This document shows positions 9,546 to 42,417 of a DNA stretch of 64,000 nucleotides, in pieces. The notes below the pieces were generated by a model. That model was not told where the DNA came from. It was given only the letters and a program-made list of their open reading frames with translations, and did no database searches. This DNA is from Burkholderiales bacterium (lineage in GTDB: Bacteria > Pseudomonadota > Gammaproteobacteria > Burkholderiales > Burkholderiaceae_C), in contig CANGHK010000018.1 of NCBI GenBank assembly GCA_947453625.1, positions 1-64,000 on the forward strand, in the 5' to 3' direction. Position 1 is the stretch's first letter. Each line of letters starts with the position of its first letter. The translations under genes were made by a program, and so were the position numbers.

Positions 9546-10610
9546 ATGGCCATCAACCGACGCAAGGCCTTGCTGGCAGTGGCTTCGCTGGCCACCTTGC
9601 CGGCATGCGCCAGCCTGGCGCCGCAAGCCACGGCCATCCAGCGCATCGCCTTCGGCTCCTGCATCAACCAGGCGCTGCCGCAACCGATCTGGGCCGCGGT
9701 GCTGGCGGCCAGGCCCGAGCTGTTCATCTTCGGCGGCGACAACGTCTACGCCAGCGAACAGCCCTGGTCGCTGGTCAAGTTGCAGGCGGCCTATGCCCAA
9801 CTCGCCGCCGACCCTGGCTTTGCCAGGCTGCGCCAGACCGTGCCGCACCTGGAAATCTGGGATGACAACGACTATGGCCTGAACGACGGCGGGGCCGACT
9901 TTGTCCACCGCCAGGCGTCCAAGGACGCGTTCATGGATTTCTGGCAGTTGCCCGCCGATGACGAGCGCCGCAGCCGCGACGGGCTCTACCACGCGCGCAG
10001 CTTTGGCCCTGCCGGCCGCAGGGTGCAGGTGATCATGCTCGACGTGCGCTGGTCGCGTTCACCTTGGAAGCCCACCGACCGGCGCAACCAGCCCGGCCGC
10101 GAGCGCTACCAGCCCGACGCCGATCCGGCCAAGACCATGCTGGGTGCGGCGCAATGGCAGTGGCTGGAGTCGCAGCTGCGCGAGCCGGCCGACCTGCGGC
10201 TGATCATCTCGGGCATCCAGGTCGTGGCCGACGGCCATGGCTGGGAATGCTGGGCCAACTTTCCACTCGAGCGCCAGCGCCTTTACGACCTGATCGCCAG
10301 CACCGGCGCGCGCGGCGCGGTGTTGCTGTCGGGCGACCGCCATCTCGGCGCTTTCTACCGCGAAGCGGGCAGTGCCGACCGGCGCGTGCCCTACCCGCTG
10401 GTCGACTTCACCGCCAGCGGCATGACCCATGCCTGGAAGGGCGCTGCCGAGGCCGGCCCGAACCGGATCAGTCCGCTCTACGACGAACCCCAGTTCGGCA
10501 CGCTCGAGATCGACTGGCCGGCGCGGCACGTGGCAATGACCTTGCGCGACGTGGCGGGACGCCCGCAGCGCGAACTCACCCTGGCGCTGGACGCCTTGCA
10601 ACCCCATTGA
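9546..10610 (+). CDS. PhoD-like metallophosphatase, lipoprotein
   Basis: A 354-residue alkaline phosphatase D relative. The N-terminus has Arg-Arg (NRRKALL), a hydrophobic stretch and the lipobox LPAC near residue 20, so it is predicted to be exported, possibly by Tat, and lipid-anchored. Metal-site motifs are FGSC, GGDNVYA, WDDNDYG, ISGIQ and SGDRHLGAF, in the order expected for PhoD-type enzymes that cleave phosphodiesters or phosphomonoesters. It starts six bases after pccA, inside the propionyl-CoA operon, with no obvious metabolic link. The substrate is unknown. Confidence 0.88.
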
Positions 10611-10624
10611 AACCGAGCCCCACC

Positions 10625-11089
10625 ATGAGCGCCAAACCTTTCCGCATCCTCGGCATCCAGCAGATCGCCATCGGCGGCCCCGACAAGCAAAAGCTGAAAA
10701 GCCTGTGGGTCGACATGCTGGGCCTGACGGTCAAGAGCACCTTCGTCTCCGAGCGCGAGAACGTCGACGAGGACATCTGCGCGCTCGGCAATGGCCCGAC
10801 GGCGGTCGAGGTCGACCTGATGCAGCCGATCGACCCCGACAAGAAGCCGGCGGTTCACACCACGCCGCTCAACCATGTCGGGCTGTGGGTCGACGACCTG
10901 GCGCTGGCGGTCGAGTGGATGACGGCCAACGGCGTGCGTTTCGCCCCGGGCGGTATACGCAAGGGCGCGGCTGGCCACGACATCACCTTCATCCATCCCA
11001 AGGGCAACGAGGCGTTTCCGCTCAGTGGCGAGGGCGTGCTGATCGAACTGGTGCAGGCGCCGACCGAGGTGATCGCGGCGCTGGGCTGA
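10625..11089 (+). CDS. VOC-fold protein, probable methylmalonyl-CoA epimerase
   Basis: A 154-residue glyoxalase/VOC protein with two beta-alpha-beta-beta-beta repeats. Between the carboxylase, which makes the S epimer, and the mutase, which uses the R epimer, an epimerase is required, and this is the only candidate in the operon. Visible ligand candidates are His in [11 protein letters not shown] and Glu in LIELVQ. The first metal ligand, normally His in the epimerase start, is Gln here (GIQQIAIG), so the assignment is not certain and a dioxygenase/lyase-like VOC protein remains possible. It begins 14 bases after the phosphatase. Confidence 0.75.
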
Positions 11090-37214: not shown

Positions 37215-37290
<76 letters not shown>

Positions 37291-37354: not shown

Positions 37355-37430
37355 GTCCCCTTCGTCTAGAGGCCTAGGACACCACCCTTTCACGGTGATT
37401 ACAGGGGTTCGAATCCCCTAGGGGACGCCA
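37355..37430 (+). tRNA. tRNA-Glu (TTC anticodon)
   Basis: A 76-base cloverleaf with encoded CCA: acceptor GTCCCCT pairing with AGGGGAC, anticodon loop CTTTCAC giving TTC, T loop TTCGAAT. It lies 64 bases after tRNA-Ala. Its 3' end is a typical attachment site for tyrosine integrases, and an integrase remnant follows within 200 bases. Confidence 0.96.
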
Positions 37431-37463
37431 TTACAGGCAGTCAGGTTGACGCACAACGAAGCA

Positions 37464-37499
37464 AGCCCCTGGGTGAATCAATCACTCAGGGGCTTTTTT
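37464..37499 (+). terminator. Rho-independent terminator of the tRNA unit
   Basis: Arms AGCCCCTGGGTGA and TCACTCAGGGGCT (one mismatch) around ATCAA... are followed by six T residues at 37494-37499. It ends the tRNA-Ala/tRNA-Glu transcript just before the integrase remnant. Confidence 0.85.
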
Positions 37500-37625
37500 C
37501 TTGTCACGTTGGCGCATGACGGGGCTGTACAGCGCACGGCAAACCGGGGAACGGACCGGGATTCCGGGGTAGAAGCGGGGAACTTTCCCCGGTTCACCCA
37601 GACCGGGACACCTAGAAAGGCCGCC

Positions 37626-38128
37626 GTGCTGACCAATCCAGACTGCAAGAACGCCACCTGTCCCGAGGGCGAGGTTCGCGCTCGACTGACTGATGGCCGT
37701 GGGCTGTACCTCGAGGTTTCTCCTGCCGGGTCGAAGCGCTGATTCTGGAAGTTCTACCCCGACGGCAAGGAATCCCGGCTGGCGCTGGGCAGCTACCCGG
37801 ATGTGACGCCTCAAGGAGGCAAGGGCGGCGCGCGACGAAGCCCGCAAGGTCCGGGCTGCCGGCACGAACCCGGTGCAGCAGCGCAAGGCCGACAAGCTGT
37901 TCAAGACGAACGCCAACGCGACGAACTTCGAGGCGGTGGCCCGAGAGTTCCACGCTTCCAAGGTCGGCGAGTGGTGACCTGGTGGAACTGCGCCTGGCCG
38001 GCCGGTTGTTGACAGGCCGATCAAGGCCCAGTTCGTGGGTAGCGAGGCCGCTACGGCATCCAGACTGCCCGCCGAGAGCGCAACCCGGCCGGCTACCTGT
38101 GCGGAGCGCTGAAGGCGATACAGGTCTT
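37626..38128 (+). pseudogene. Decayed tyrosine-type (P4-like) integrase at tRNA-Glu
   Basis: The N-terminal Arm-binding (DUF4102-type) domain is readable as LTNPDCKNATCPEGEVRARL, a TGA at 37740-37742 in place of a Trp codon, then FWKFYPDGKESRLALGSYPD. A frameshift near 37805 leads to KEARAARDEARKVRAAGTNP and a core-domain start ending HASKVGEW. After an internal deletion one more fragment, RYGIQTARRERNPAGYL (from 38049), is recognisable. The catalytic domain with the Arg-His-Tyr residues is gone. The place after the tRNA 3' end is where such integrases insert. It runs into the truncated PAS gene on the other strand. Confidence 0.85.
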
Positions 38129-38551
38129 CAGCAAGCGGCGCCTGGCGTCGCTGCGGCTTGGCTGGGTCTCTTCGCTCGACGCCACCACGTTCGTGATGTC
38201 GTAGAACACCAGCACATAACCAGTGGGCTGCAGTGCCGCATCGCTGGTGCGCGAAACCTTGATCAGCAGCACCCGCTCGGGGATGTTGATGATCATCGTC
38301 ATCGGCGGCGGCGCTGCCACCGGGCATTGCGCGGCCTGGTCGAGCAGGAACTCCACCTTGGGCCGCGAGCGTTCAGGGTGGAATTCGAGCACCATCTTGT
38401 CGAACGGCAGCTTCTGCTCGACCGGCAGCACGCGCCGGGCGTAGTCGTTCATGCCGATCACATGGCGCCTGTTGTCCAGGTGCACGATGCCCGGCTCGAC
38501 GCGCTCCAGCAGGTAGAGCGGCGAGACCGGTGCGACTCGGTTGTCGATCAC
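38093..38551 (-). pseudogene. PAS-domain sensor resembling RcoM, output domain lost
   Basis: A 152-residue frame that starts at GTG with GGAGG eight bases upstream, so its translation start looks intact. Residues about 10-125 match the PAS domain of the CO-sensing regulator RcoM: VEPGIVHLDNRRHVIGMND, FHPERSRPKVEFLL, CPVAAPPPMTMIINIPERV and VLVFYDIT. His58, Cys76 and Met86 line up with RcoM heme ligands as I recall them (His74, Cys94, Met104); the Cys-Met spacing of ten is kept. RcoM proteins continue into a LytTR DNA-binding domain after an RRLFK-like linker; here homology stops at RRLLK and the frame runs into integrase remnant sequence. The product, if made, would be a sensor without an output domain. 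Confidence 0.7.
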
Positions 38552-38683: not shown

Positions 38684-39466
38684 ATGAACCCCAGCCCTAC
38701 TCCCGGCCCGCCCCTGCTGCAATTGCACGACGGCCGCGCCACCCTGACGCTGAACCGCCCGGCCCACCACAACCGCCTGCATCTGGAAGACCTGCTGGCC
38801 TTGCAGCGCCACTTTGCGGCGCTGGCGGCCGACCCGGCGGTGAAACTGCTGGTGCTGACCGGCAGCGGGCGGACCTTCTGCTCGGGCTTCCACATCGGCG
38901 AGTTCGACGGCGCAGCCAACGCCGCCAGTGCCGGTCCCGCTTTGTTCGAGCAGACCGTGGACGCGCTCGAAGCCCTGGCCTTGCCCACGGTCTGCCGCCT
39001 CAACGGCAGCGTCCACGGCGGCGCCACCGACCTGGCGCTGGCCTGCGACTTCCGGGTCGGGGTCAGCACGATGGACTTGCGCATGCCGGCGGCCCGGCTC
39101 GGCCTGCATTACTACCCCAACGGCTTGCGGCGCTATGTGTCGCGGCTGGGGCTGGCCACCGCCAAGCGGCTGTTCCTGCTGGCCGAGAGCGTGCCGGCGG
39201 CCGAACTGCTGGCGCTGGGCTACCTCGACCGGCTCGTCGCGCCCGACCAGCTCGACGCCGAGGTGCAGGCCATCGCCGACGCGCTGGCCGCCGGTGCGCC
39301 TCTGGCGCTGCGCGGCATGAAGGCCTCGCTCAACGAGATCGCCCGCGGCGAGTTCCACCTCGCGGCATTGCGCCAGCGCGAGGCGCTGTGTGCGGCCAGC
39401 GCCGACTTGCAGGAAGGCAAGGCGGCCTTTGCCGAGAAGCGCCCGCCGCGCTTTGCCGGATGCTGA
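38684..39466 (+). CDS. Enoyl-CoA hydratase/isomerase family protein
   Basis: A 260-residue crotonase-fold protein. The two oxyanion-hole segments are CSGFHIGEFDG and GSVHGGATDLALACDFRVG. The usual catalytic Glu positions of true hydratases are not clearly matched: the helix after the second segment reads RMPAARLGLHYYPNG. The exact reaction, hydration, isomerisation or hydrolysis of an acyl-CoA, is unknown. The ATG at 38684 fits the domain start; the frame is open further up but over the integrase scar. A FAD oxidoreductase follows. Confidence 0.85.
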   Translation: MNPSPTPGPPLLQLHDGRATLTLNRPAHHNRLHLEDLLALQRHFAALAADPAVKLLVLTGSGRTFCSGFHIGEFDGAANAASAGPALFEQTVDALEALALPTVCRLNGSVHGGATDLALACDFRVGVSTMDLRMPAARLGLHYYPNGLRRYVSRLGLATAKRLFLLAESVPAAELLALGYLDRLVAPDQLDAEVQAIADALAAGAPLALRGMKASLNEIARGEFHLAALRQREALCAASADLQEGKAAFAEKRPPRFAGC

Positions 39467-39533: not shown

Positions 39534-40706
39534 ATGAGGGTCGTCGTGATCGGCGGCGGCGCCATCGGCTCGGCGGTGGCGCTGTTTCTCAAGCGCCTGG
39601 GCGGGGCGGCGGTGGATGTCGAGGTGATCGAGCCCGACCCCAGCCTGCGGCAAGCCTCGTCGGCACGGTCGGCCGGCTCGATCCGGCAGCAGTTCAGCAA
39701 CGCGGTCAATGTGCAGATGTCGCGCTTCGGGCACGAGGTGCTGGCCAACGCCGACGACTGGCTGGGCGTGGACGGCGCGCCGGTGCGGCTGGATTTCGTG
39801 CCCGGCGCCTACCTGTTCTGCGCCACCGCGGCCGGCGCCCCGGTGCTGCGCGCCAACCATGCGGTGCAGCGCGCCCAGGCGGTCGACGTGACGCTGCTGA
39901 CACCGGCCGAGGCCGCTGAGCGCTTTGCCTGGCTGCGTACCGACGACCTGGAGCTGACCAGCCTGGGCGGGGCTGGCGAGGGCTGGTTCGACGGCGAGGC
40001 CTGGGCACGCGCGCTGGCGCACAAGGCGCGGTCGCTGGGCGCACGCTGGCGCCAGGCCCGCGTGGTGGCGCTGACGTGCCAGGGCGACCGCTTGCTGGCC
40101 GCCGGCCTGGATGACGGCCAGCGGGTCGAAGCCGATGCCTTCGTCAACGCCGCCGGTCCCTGGGCCGGCGCGGTCGGCCGGCTGGCCGGGCTGGACCTGC
40201 CGGTGCACGCGCGCCGGCGCACCGTGTTCGCGCTGCGCTGCCCGACGCCCCTGCCCCGCCTACCGCTGGTGGTCGATCCGGCGGGGGTCTGGTTTCGCAG
40301 CGAGGGACTGGGCTTCATCGCCGGCTGGTCGCCGGGCGAGGGCGACGCCGACCCCGACGACCTGCCGCTGGACGCACCCGACCTGGCGCAGTTCGAGCGC
40401 CGGGTCTGGCCGGTGCTGGCCAACCGCGTTCCGGCGTTCGAGGCCTTGCGCGTCAGCCACGCCTGGGCCGGCTATTACGAGGTGCATCCGCTCGACCACA
40501 ACGCGCTGATCGGTGCGCACCCCGATTGCCCCAATCTGCTGTTGTGCAACGGCTTCTCGGGCCATGGCCTGCAGCACGCGCCGGCGGCCGGCCGCGGCGT
40601 GGCCGAGTGGCTGTTGCACGGCCGCTTCCAGAGCCTGGACCTGTCGGCGCTGGGTTGCCAGCGGCTGCGCACGCAACAACCGTTCACCGAGCAAGCGGTG
40701 ATCTGA
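39534..40706 (+). CDS. FAD-dependent oxidoreductase, DAO / FOXRED1-like
   Basis: A 390-residue flavoprotein of the D-amino-acid oxidase/sarcosine oxidase superfamily. The dinucleotide loop is MRVVVIGGGAIGSAVALFL, followed by SSARSAGSIRQQFS, a second FAD strand FVNAAGPWAG and the C-terminal GFSGHGLQHAPAAGRGVAEW typical of FOXRED1-like members. The substrate, probably an N-methyl or amino acid, cannot be set. It follows the hydratase by 67 bases and converges on riboflavin synthase, which makes the flavin precursor; whether this link means anything is open. Confidence 0.88.
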   Translation: MRVVVIGGGAIGSAVALFLKRLGGAAVDVEVIEPDPSLRQASSARSAGSIRQQFSNAVNVQMSRFGHEVLANADDWLGVDGAPVRLDFVPGAYLFCATAAGAPVLRANHAVQRAQAVDVTLLTPAEAAERFAWLRTDDLELTSLGGAGEGWFDGEAWARALAHKARSLGARWRQARVVALTCQGDRLLAAGLDDGQRVEADAFVNAAGPWAGAVGRLAGLDLPVHARRRTVFALRCPTPLPRLPLVVDPAGVWFRSEGLGFIAGWSPGEGDADPDDLPLDAPDLAQFERRVWPVLANRVPAFEALRVSHAWAGYYEVHPLDHNALIGAHPDCPNLLLCNGFSGHGLQHAPAAGRGVAEWLLHGRFQSLDLSALGCQRLRTQQPFTEQAVI

Positions 40707-40778
40707 CGCGGGCCGGCGGCGCTGTCGGTGCCGTCACTGCGTCGTTGCGCCAAGGCGCAGGACGCGCCCACCAGCGCC

Positions 40779-40796
40779 GACCGATGGCGATCGGTC
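40779..40796. terminator. Hairpin between convergent oxidoreductase and riboflavin synthase
   Basis: Perfect seven-base arms GACCGAT and ATCGGTC with loop GGCG lie between the two converging stops. There is no T tract, so it may be a bidirectional but weak terminator. Confidence 0.4.
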
Positions 40797-40798
40797 GG

Positions 40799-41506
40799 TC
40801 AGCGGTGCGGCAGCGTCAGCGCAGCACCCAGGTCGTCGATGGCGCTGCCCTGCTGGGCCAGCAAGGCCTCCAGCGCCGGCAGCAAGGGCCCCAGGCGCTC
40901 ATCCAGCGCATCGCGCACGGTGTCGACCAGCACCTGGGTGCTGCGCTCGATCTCGATGTTCAGTGCATCGCCCTCGCGCTTGTCGCCGAATGTCGTCATG
41001 CGCAGCGTCTCGGGGATCAGCCAGACCTCGAACCAGTGTGCACGCCGGTCCGCTTCGGCCACCGTCAGGCTGGCGCCGTTGATCGCGATATAGCCCTTGG
41101 CGAACACATAGCGCATGTGGCTGGCCGGCACGGCGATGCGCAGCACATGGTTGTTCTCGGGCTGGCGCAGCGAGACCAGCGTGCCCTGGCAATCGACATG
41201 GCCGCTGATCGGGTGGCCGCCGATCTCGGCGCCGTCGCGCGCGGCGCGCTCGACGTTGAGCCGGCTGCCTGGGGCCAGGGCTCCCAGCGAGGTCAGCCCC
41301 AGACTCTGCTGCATCACGTCGAAGCGCGCTCGGCCGGGGCCGGGCAGGGCGGTGACGGTCAGGCACACGCCGTCGCAGGCCACGCTGGCGCCTATCTCCA
41401 GGCCGCTGTCGAAACCCGGCGGCATCGCGAGCTCGAAGCTGCGCAGCCCGGGGCGGTCGGTGATGGCGGCCACGCTGGCCACGCCTTGAACAATGCCGGT
41501 GAACAT
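40799..41506 (-). CDS. ribC: Riboflavin synthase alpha chain
   Basis: Dismutates two 6,7-dimethyl-8-ribityllumazines to riboflavin. The 235 residues hold two lumazine-binding barrels: the first opens MFTGIVQGVASV and SVACDGVCLTV, the second has GGHPISGHVDCQGT and YIAINGASLTVAE. It is some 20-30 residues longer than usual at the C-terminus, with a tail LGPLLPALEALLAQQ of unknown role. The gene stands alone on the minus strand, away from a rib operon. Confidence 0.95.
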   Translation of the reverse strand: MFTGIVQGVASVAAITDRPGLRSFELAMPPGFDSGLEIGASVACDGVCLTVTALPGPGRARFDVMQQSLGLTSLGALAPGSRLNVERAARDGAEIGGHPISGHVDCQGTLVSLRQPENNHVLRIAVPASHMRYVFAKGYIAINGASLTVAEADRRAHWFEVWLIPETLRMTTFGDKREGDALNIEIERSTQVLVDTVRDALDERLGPLLPALEALLAQQGSAIDDLGAALTLPHR

Positions 41507-41628
41507 GGGATTCCTGTCTATTCCTGTCGTTTGACCGCCAGATTACCAGCGTGGCGTCCCCACCGGTGCACACTCACGCCCGCTGCAAGCCGTCCCAACC
41601 CCCTCCACCTTGCCCAGGACCCCCGACC

Positions 41629-42417
41629 ATGACCATGGAAGCCGTGCGTACCGACACCGACGGGCCCGTCGCGACCATCACGCTGTACCGCCCGGCGCAG
41701 CGCAACGCGGTGGACGGTCCGACCGCCGACGCGCTGCGTGCGGCTTTCGCGGCCTTCGAGGCCGACCCGGCACTGCGGGTGGCGGTGTTGACGGGCGGCG
41801 GCGGTCAGTTCTGTGCCGGCGCCGACCTGGGCGCCGTGGCCGACCCGGCGCGGCGCAACCGGGTCGTGGCCGACGGCAGCGGCGCCGGGCCGATGGGGCC
41901 GACGCGGATGCGGTTGCGCAAACCGGTGATCGCGGCGGTCGAAGGCCATGCGGTGGCCGGCGGGCTGGAACTGGCGCTGATGTGCGACCTGCGGGTGGCC
42001 GGCCGCAGCGCGGTGTTCGGGGTCTTCTGCCGGCGCTGGGGCGTGCCGCTGATCGACGGCGGCACGGTGCGCTTGCCGCGCTTGATCGGCCAGGCCAGGG
42101 CGCTGGACCTGATCCTGACCGGCCGGGCGGTGGCGGCCGACGAGGCGCTGGCCTTCGGGCTGGTCAACCGCGTGGTCGACGACGGCCTGGCGTTGGCCGA
42201 GGCGCAGGCGCTGGCGCGGCAGATCGCCGCCTTTCCGCAAGCCTGCCTGCAGGCCGACCGGGCCTCGGCGCTGGCGCAGTGGGACTGGCCGCTGGACCAG
42301 GCGCTGCAGCACGAGGGGGCCGGTGGCTATGCCGCGTTGCAGGCCGAAGGCCTGGCCGGCGCGGCGCGCTTCGCGGCTGGCGCCGGGCGGCATGGGCAGC
42401 CGGAAGCGGGTGGGTGA
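41629..42417 (+). CDS. Crotonase/enoyl-CoA hydratase family protein
   Basis: A 262-residue crotonase-fold protein with QFCAGADLGAV and EGHAVAGGLELALMCDLRVA as oxyanion-hole loops and WGVPLIDGGTVRLPRLIG after them, a pattern found in crotonases of unknown acyl-CoA specificity. The ATG at 41629 was chosen at the start of homology; the frame is open to 41551 without support. It is divergent from ribC and followed by an MFS gene. Confidence 0.88.
   Translation: MTMEAVRTDTDGPVATITLYRPAQRNAVDGPTADALRAAFAAFEADPALRVAVLTGGGGQFCAGADLGAVADPARRNRVVADGSGAGPMGPTRMRLRKPVIAAVEGHAVAGGLELALMCDLRVAGRSAVFGVFCRRWGVPLIDGGTVRLPRLIGQARALDLILTGRAVAADEALAFGLVNRVVDDGLALAEAQALARQIAAFPQACLQADRASALAQWDWPLDQALQHEGAGGYAALQAEGLAGAARFAAGAGRHGQPEAGG

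Follow-up and report, generated by a model that had tools for sequence, protein, structure and literature searches.

Behind a pair of tRNA genes in a genome of the Burkholderiales, the remnant of a tyrosine integrase meets, tail to tail, a short gene for the sensor part of an RcoM-like protein. This locus raises the question of how a truncated sensor gene came to adjoin a dead integrase and whether the remaining fragment still serves the cell. It lies in the window, which means here the whole stretch of 64,000 nucleotides that was analysed, and its central features are the following.

37215..37290, plus strand: tRNA-Ala (ggc), found by ARAGORN and Rfam (RF00005)
37355..37430, plus strand: intact tRNA-Glu (ttc), found by ARAGORN and Rfam, with the integrase remnant starting 3' of it
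37463..37495, plus strand: terminator-like hairpin between tRNA-Glu and the integrase
37626..38120, plus strand: tyrosine integrase remnant, its N-terminal half in two frames
38121..38125, no strand assigned: integrase/rcoM junction
38093..38551, minus strand: truncated rcoM-type gene for 152 amino acids, with a GTG start at 38551 and the stop codon at 38093-38095

The integrase remnant has been mapped by tblastn with four intact relatives and by three-frame reading. The first frame runs from GTG at 37626 to about 37806, crossing a TGA (37740-37742) at a position of tryptophan in the relatives. After a frameshift near 37806, the second frame runs from about 37810 to a tryptophan codon (37972-37974), followed by another TGA (37975-37977). 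Then comes an internal gap with respect to the relatives, and the last piece, RYGIQTARRERNPAGYLCGALKAI, is encoded back in the first frame at 38049-38120. Homology stops at about 38120, short of the C-terminal catalytic half, which is absent according to tblastn. The original prediction described a dead integrase behind tRNA-Glu with a TGA, a frameshift and an internal gap, all of which are confirmed; its last fragment was correctly identified, although it runs about 7 residues further than was thought, to 38120.

Intact relatives of this integrase are encoded directly 3' of tRNA-Leu (genome G013, 72% over the searched part), and others adjoin tRNA-His (G019, 62%), tRNA-Gly (G021, 60%) and tRNA-Ser (G020, 51%). 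The spacer between tRNA-Glu and the remnant (37441-37583) is similar to the one that separates tRNA-Leu from its intact integrase in G013 (blastn, 71% over about 150 bases). Since both the relatives and the similar spacer adjoin tRNA genes, the remnant is regarded as a former tRNA-associated integrase. The hairpin in this spacer carries little weight by itself, because three terminator-like sites are seen in the region versus 1.3 expected. With the integrases that we take to be P4-type, which insert at the 3' ends of tRNA genes, the remnant shares the place directly behind a tRNA gene, and its N-terminal pieces are 60-72% identical to the tRNA-Leu, -His and -Gly integrases, whereas its frames are broken, its catalytic half is missing and no attR is found: the tRNA-Glu 3' end (last 25 bases) has no second copy with up to 3 mismatches in the window or in the assembled genome. 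At least three frame lesions are present in about 500 bases of the integrase remnant, in contrast to none in the 426 bases of the PAS frame, and from these several lesions the integrase probably died before the junction event.

Sequences of a similar kind are seen at other places. Contig C34 of G013 terminates exactly at the tRNA-Glu 3' end, and the intact integrase relative behind tRNA-Leu is on contig C272 of this genome (loci L048 and L074 for the two contigs). A 29-base copy of the tRNA-Glu 3' end with 90% identity lies away from the tRNA at 15645-15673 of contig C18 of G015 (L032), which may be where the far end of an element in that genome is attached. Contig C53 of the window's own genome (L073) has at its end, on the minus strand of 1-1106, an integrase-like N-terminus recognized by eye, about 5 kb from an amidohydrolase-like gene.

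The 152-codon frame on the opposite strand starts 8 nt downstream of GGAGG and is made up of 142 codons for the PAS domain and linker followed by 10 codons of antisense integrase DNA. The match to full-length relatives spans residues 2-142 and ends right after RRLLK (138-142), exactly where the loss of homology had been placed. Over up to these residues, the fragment is 57-84% identical to PAS-LytTR proteins, while domain search detects no LytTR domain in the 152-codon frame. PF08448 (PAS_4) matches the fragment with 21.5 bits, slightly below the cut-off of 23.1, and the homologues of G011 and G012 with 23.4 and 20.2 bits, respectively. The last integrase match ends at 38120 and the rcoM DNA match begins at 38125, and thus the junction is blunt within a few bases, by which the exact breakpoint is uncertain; neither an insertion sequence nor a repeat is recognized there by eye.

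RcoM (regulator of CO metabolism), known from Paraburkholderia xenovorans and related bacteria, is a one-component CO sensor built of PAS and LytTR domains, and the ligand positions of the P. xenovorans protein are presumably His74 and Cys94. His58, Cys76 and Met86 of the fragment align with His75, Cys95 and Met105 of a homologue from Paraburkholderia aromaticivorans, the gene of which adjoins CO dehydrogenase genes. These numbers differ by a uniform +1 from the P. xenovorans numbering, the P. xenovorans protein itself being outside the alignment; its Met104 is named in the title of a paper (Bowman 2016) cited in PMC9670170. Each of His58, Cys76, Met84 and Met86 is invariant in 86 of 86 aligned sequences, including two probable duplicates. 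His58, Cys76 and Met86 are therefore candidate heme ligands at the RcoM positions, retained as proposed together with the GTG and the GGAGG.

The nearest relative, G011 of the same genus, has a PAS-LytTR protein of 255 amino acids that is 84% identical to the fragment up to residue 142 and contains PF04397 (75.4 bits) in the LytTR half, which upholds the RcoM-type identity of the truncated gene. A PAS search of 60 genomes, the window's own and 59 others, yields matches in seven, namely the fragment itself and six others. In a scan of genome_contigs, 166 relatives have been found and 80 kept, two of which probably duplicate G005 and G029. LytTR is in frame in all 80 kept homologues (76 by a strict coordinate rule, the other four confirmed separately), and their length counted from the start of the PAS match is 240-269 amino acids. 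A conserved stand-alone gene of 152 residues, which would have spoken against truncation, is ruled out among these homologues, and the PAS homologues keep the heme ligands and LytTR as expected. In the window's family, PAS is found in 36 of 399 sampled genomes, and 34 of the 36 have stop-to-stop frames of at least 251 amino acids, as judged by frame length only. The two short frames, again from stop to stop, are that of the window (173 amino acids) and that of G378 (168 amino acids). As for the literature on RcoM, titles and abstract openings among the matches listed mention no natural stand-alone RcoM heme domain.

The second short frame, in G378 (L163, G378:C252, about 10400-10925, minus strand), is also an rcoM gene without LytTR. 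Homology breaks off within PAS, after about residue 107-110, unlike in the window, where the breakpoint comes after residue 142; with a cut inside the domain, the G378 frame looks broken. coxM starts about 45 bases past the end of PAS homology and coxL, coxG and coxD are also kept, whereas the window has no match to cox genes. The CoxL of G378 has the motif AYRCSLR instead of the AYRCSFR of other relatives.

The surroundings of the full-length genes suggest what else has been lost. Names of cox and mocA genes are given by resemblance and gene order, CoxL alone having been compared with a curated model, and coxS was left out of the query set. coxM, coxL and coxG are located 3' of rcoM on the same strand in all six related genomes with the gene; coxD and coxE are found in five of them (in the sixth, G005, the contig ends) and coxF in four. 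Among the 80 kept loci, coxM is directly downstream in 79 (the sequence of the 80th stops after 231 bases), and coxL follows in 69, the other 11 stretches ending within 1.7 kb of rcoM. For Cupriavidus and Paraburkholderia, PMC11771112 reports an arrangement with rcoM, coxGDEF and mocA.

Within the window, there is no match to the cox genes. CoxL proteins of the six relatives score 1529-1536 bits with the CoxL model TIGR02416, whereas the best protein of the window's genome scores 652, below the cut-off of 991, and no CoxL above the cut-off is found in the assembled genome. The 652-bit protein is 39% identical to the CoxL of G011 and has the motif AYRGAGR, in contrast to AYRCSFR in five of the six relatives and SYRCSFR in the sixth (G012); we take AYRCSFR and SYRCSFR to be the motifs of form I and AYRGAGR that of form II CoxL. 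The window's genome thus appears to have lost the CO dehydrogenase operon, as far as gene content can tell, and from the linkage of rcoM and cox in relatives together with the lack of a CoxL above the cut-off, the lost DNA most likely included this operon. The loss is larger and more specific than 'whatever the element carried', as originally put, a wording that did not foresee this operon.

The look-out for a full PAS-LytTR gene and CO oxidation genes elsewhere in the genome, as originally suggested, yields neither an RcoM-type gene nor a CoxL above the cut-off. No other RcoM PAS is present in it, nor is the LytTR half of rcoM (PF04397), and its three LytTR genes all encode receiver-LytTR response regulators (PF00072 and PF04397). 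A full-length RcoM partner is ruled out in this genome, and the suggested pairing of the fragment with a full-length relative in the same cell is without support.

On the other side of the truncated gene, the window contains the following genes.

38684..39466, plus strand: enoyl-CoA hydratase family gene ECH1 (PF00378, E 1.4e-33)
39540..42417, plus strand: neighbour block of three genes, which G011 likewise has near rcoM-cox, though on the opposite side of it
39540-40706, plus strand: FAD oxidoreductase, named from resemblance
40799-41506, minus strand: riboflavin synthase-like gene, named from resemblance
41551-42417, plus strand: second enoyl-CoA hydratase, named from resemblance

The names of the three genes of the block are presumptive. 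In G011, all three of these genes are upstream of rcoM. G012 has both hydratases and the riboflavin synthase-like gene upstream of rcoM and in the same direction, the ECH1 counterpart being about 19 kb away from it. In contrast to both genomes, rcoM of the window is at the opposite end of the block and points away from it.

tRNA-Glu has no such company in relatives, as rcoM adjoins it in none of the four same-genus genomes carrying both. In G012, an assembly of seven contigs, tRNA-Glu (2,402,003) and rcoM (2,571,988) are 170 kb apart; in G011, G005 and G004 they are on different contigs. The original prediction that one deletion took away the catalytic part of the integrase, the cargo and the DNA-binding half of the sensor is thus right as to the losses but too simple in its single local deletion, which is not the best account. 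About 65-72 kb along contig C18 of the window's genome (L079), beyond the window, there are genes that lie behind cox in G011, in inverted order, which indicates several rearrangement events. These gene orders are most simply read as a junction between regions that used to be apart, plus at least one more rearrangement. Relatives differ in what lies behind tRNA-Glu, and the ancestral order is accordingly uncertain; a very large deletion, in a lineage whose genes were arranged differently, is also conceivable. An amidohydrolase-like gene, for example, is found within 4.6 kb 3' of tRNA-Glu in 5 of 13 same-genus stretches, some of which are short, so that this region varies in the genus anyway. 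A homologue of this gene with 93% identity is on contig C53 of the window's genome, which was considered as proof of a break at tRNA-Glu and set aside as weak, the gene being behind tRNA-Glu in only 5 of 13.

We consider it probable that the short gene is a young pseudogene at a rearrangement junction, left as a fragment without selected function after loss of the cox operon. A chromosomal rearrangement with loss of DNA would have joined two ancestrally separate regions, one with tRNA-Ala and tRNA-Glu and an already decaying tRNA-targeted integrase, the other with rcoM and cox. The catalytic half of the integrase, the LytTR DNA-binding half of rcoM and the CO dehydrogenase operon would all have been lost at the junction. 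That the operon disappeared in the same event as the truncation of rcoM is suggested by the gene order of the relatives. The 152-codon frame would still be translatable into a PAS heme domain with a junk tail of 10 residues. Having neither an output domain nor a target operon, this product most likely has no selected function and would decay, and we infer that the fragment is outside selection.

The alternative that survives best, though unlikely, is a working stand-alone heme/CO-binding domain: the fragment would be expressed and form a PAS dimer with very tight heme and CO binding that switches no gene; it would buffer CO or heme, or sense on behalf of another partner. Its PAS domain and linker are complete, the ligand candidates are invariant, and the conserved columns are undecayed, with no change at the 52 columns conserved in at least 90% of the 86-sequence alignment (two probable duplicates included). 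AlphaFold with 36 sequences predicts a PAS topology for the fragment (mean pLDDT 67.7, pTM 0.58; tail residues 129-152 below 50), and Foldseek with this model finds mostly PAS or LOV sensor domains, several of them heme domains (DosP, Aer2, SrrB and FixL). The full-length G011 protein modelled without an alignment has a mean pLDDT of 34. By sequence, the PAS part has no match in the PDB, and the five chain sequences found there with the PAS-LytTR protein profile are all over the LytTR part.

Substitution patterns have been compared between the window and G011, which differ by a dN of 0.082 and a dS of 0.409. Counted with each of seven outgroups, the window branch carries 12-17.5 synonymous changes and 5-9 replacements, versus 6.5-9 and 1-6.5 on the G011 branch. 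The window branch is thus longer in synonymous and replacement changes alike. Pairwise values to the window and to G011 are, respectively, 0.211 and 0.175 (G012), 0.245 and 0.198 (G005), and 0.138 and 0.130 (L082) for dN, and 0.478 and 0.413 (G012), 0.535 and 0.450 (G005), and 0.512 and 0.325 (L082) for dS. Neither the branch counts, which are small, nor private changes at conserved columns give a clear sign of relaxed selection on the fragment, and the third-position G+C of the PAS frame is of the coding type (0.89). In a neutral simulation with random substitutions, indels being ignored, the conserved columns and the frame remain untouched in 6.4% of runs after 8 substitutions and in 3.1% after 10. 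From this simulation and the undamaged PAS, the truncation either dates back less than about 2% of neutral divergence or has been followed by continued selection. The intact PAS columns, the synonymous excess, the third-position G+C and the GGAGG start fit continued selection and a recent event equally well.

Against a working domain, 8 random substitutions are harmless often enough in the simulation for recency to suffice, and none of the 80 kept homologues stands alone. The other short frame among the 399 family genomes, that of G378, breaks off within PAS and thus seems to be damaged. In the window's fragment, the last 10 residues come from integrase DNA read antisense, and the genome is without a CoxL above the cut-off. 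Still more specifically, a stand-alone RcoM heme domain made by rearrangement and then expressed and selected as a very tight CO/heme trap in a cell with no CO oxidation left is very unlikely.

An assembly artefact, in which unrelated contigs were fused near 38120 while an intact rcoM-cox region stayed unassembled or unbinned, is quite unlikely. As the assembly is a draft of 127 contigs with 95.6% completeness, a cox contig may be missing or have been left unbinned, or the join may be chimeric, and 39 bases across the junction have no exact match in IMG/VR viral contigs. Yet the junction lies well within a contig of 85 kb, and after a chimeric fusion the missing half of rcoM would be expected at the end of some contig, while other contigs contain neither the RcoM LytTR half (PF04397) nor a CoxL above the cut-off. 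Further, the genes 5' of rcoM are also near cox in G011 and G012. Least likely of all is that rcoM-cox was cargo of an element at tRNA-Glu from which one internal deletion removed the integrase core, cox and the LytTR half: the rcoM remnant does come directly after the integrase remnant behind the tRNA, and rcoM with CO dehydrogenase genes can be mobile, for example on a Paraburkholderia plasmid, but no attR is found, rcoM is away from tRNA-Glu in all four same-genus genomes with both, and the window genes beyond rcoM have counterparts close to cox in G011 and G012, which places rcoM near its native surroundings.

As a probable recent pseudogene at a rearrangement junction, the fragment can be compared with known systems. 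Like RcoM, it has a PAS domain in which the positions of the His, Cys and Met ligands are retained, and it is 84% identical to a complete PAS-LytTR gene that precedes cox genes in a member of its genus; unlike RcoM, it lacks LytTR and the cox operon and has a chimeric 10-residue tail. It also resembles the laboratory construct of the RcoM heme domain, in which the heme PAS is kept and the DNA-binding domain removed; that construct has been purified and binds heme and CO, whereas the fragment is known from sequence alone and was apparently born of genome rearrangement. Were it shown to be expressed, it would parallel in nature the RcoM heme domain that is studied as a CO scavenger. With G378 and the window, there are two cases in which rcoM has lost LytTR, the cox operon being kept in the former and apparently lost in the latter. 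The case documents a lineage losing aerobic CO oxidation, in which the regulator has been left with an untouched sensor half, its output half having disappeared and apparently the operon as well, so that either the loss is very recent or the sensor half is still used.
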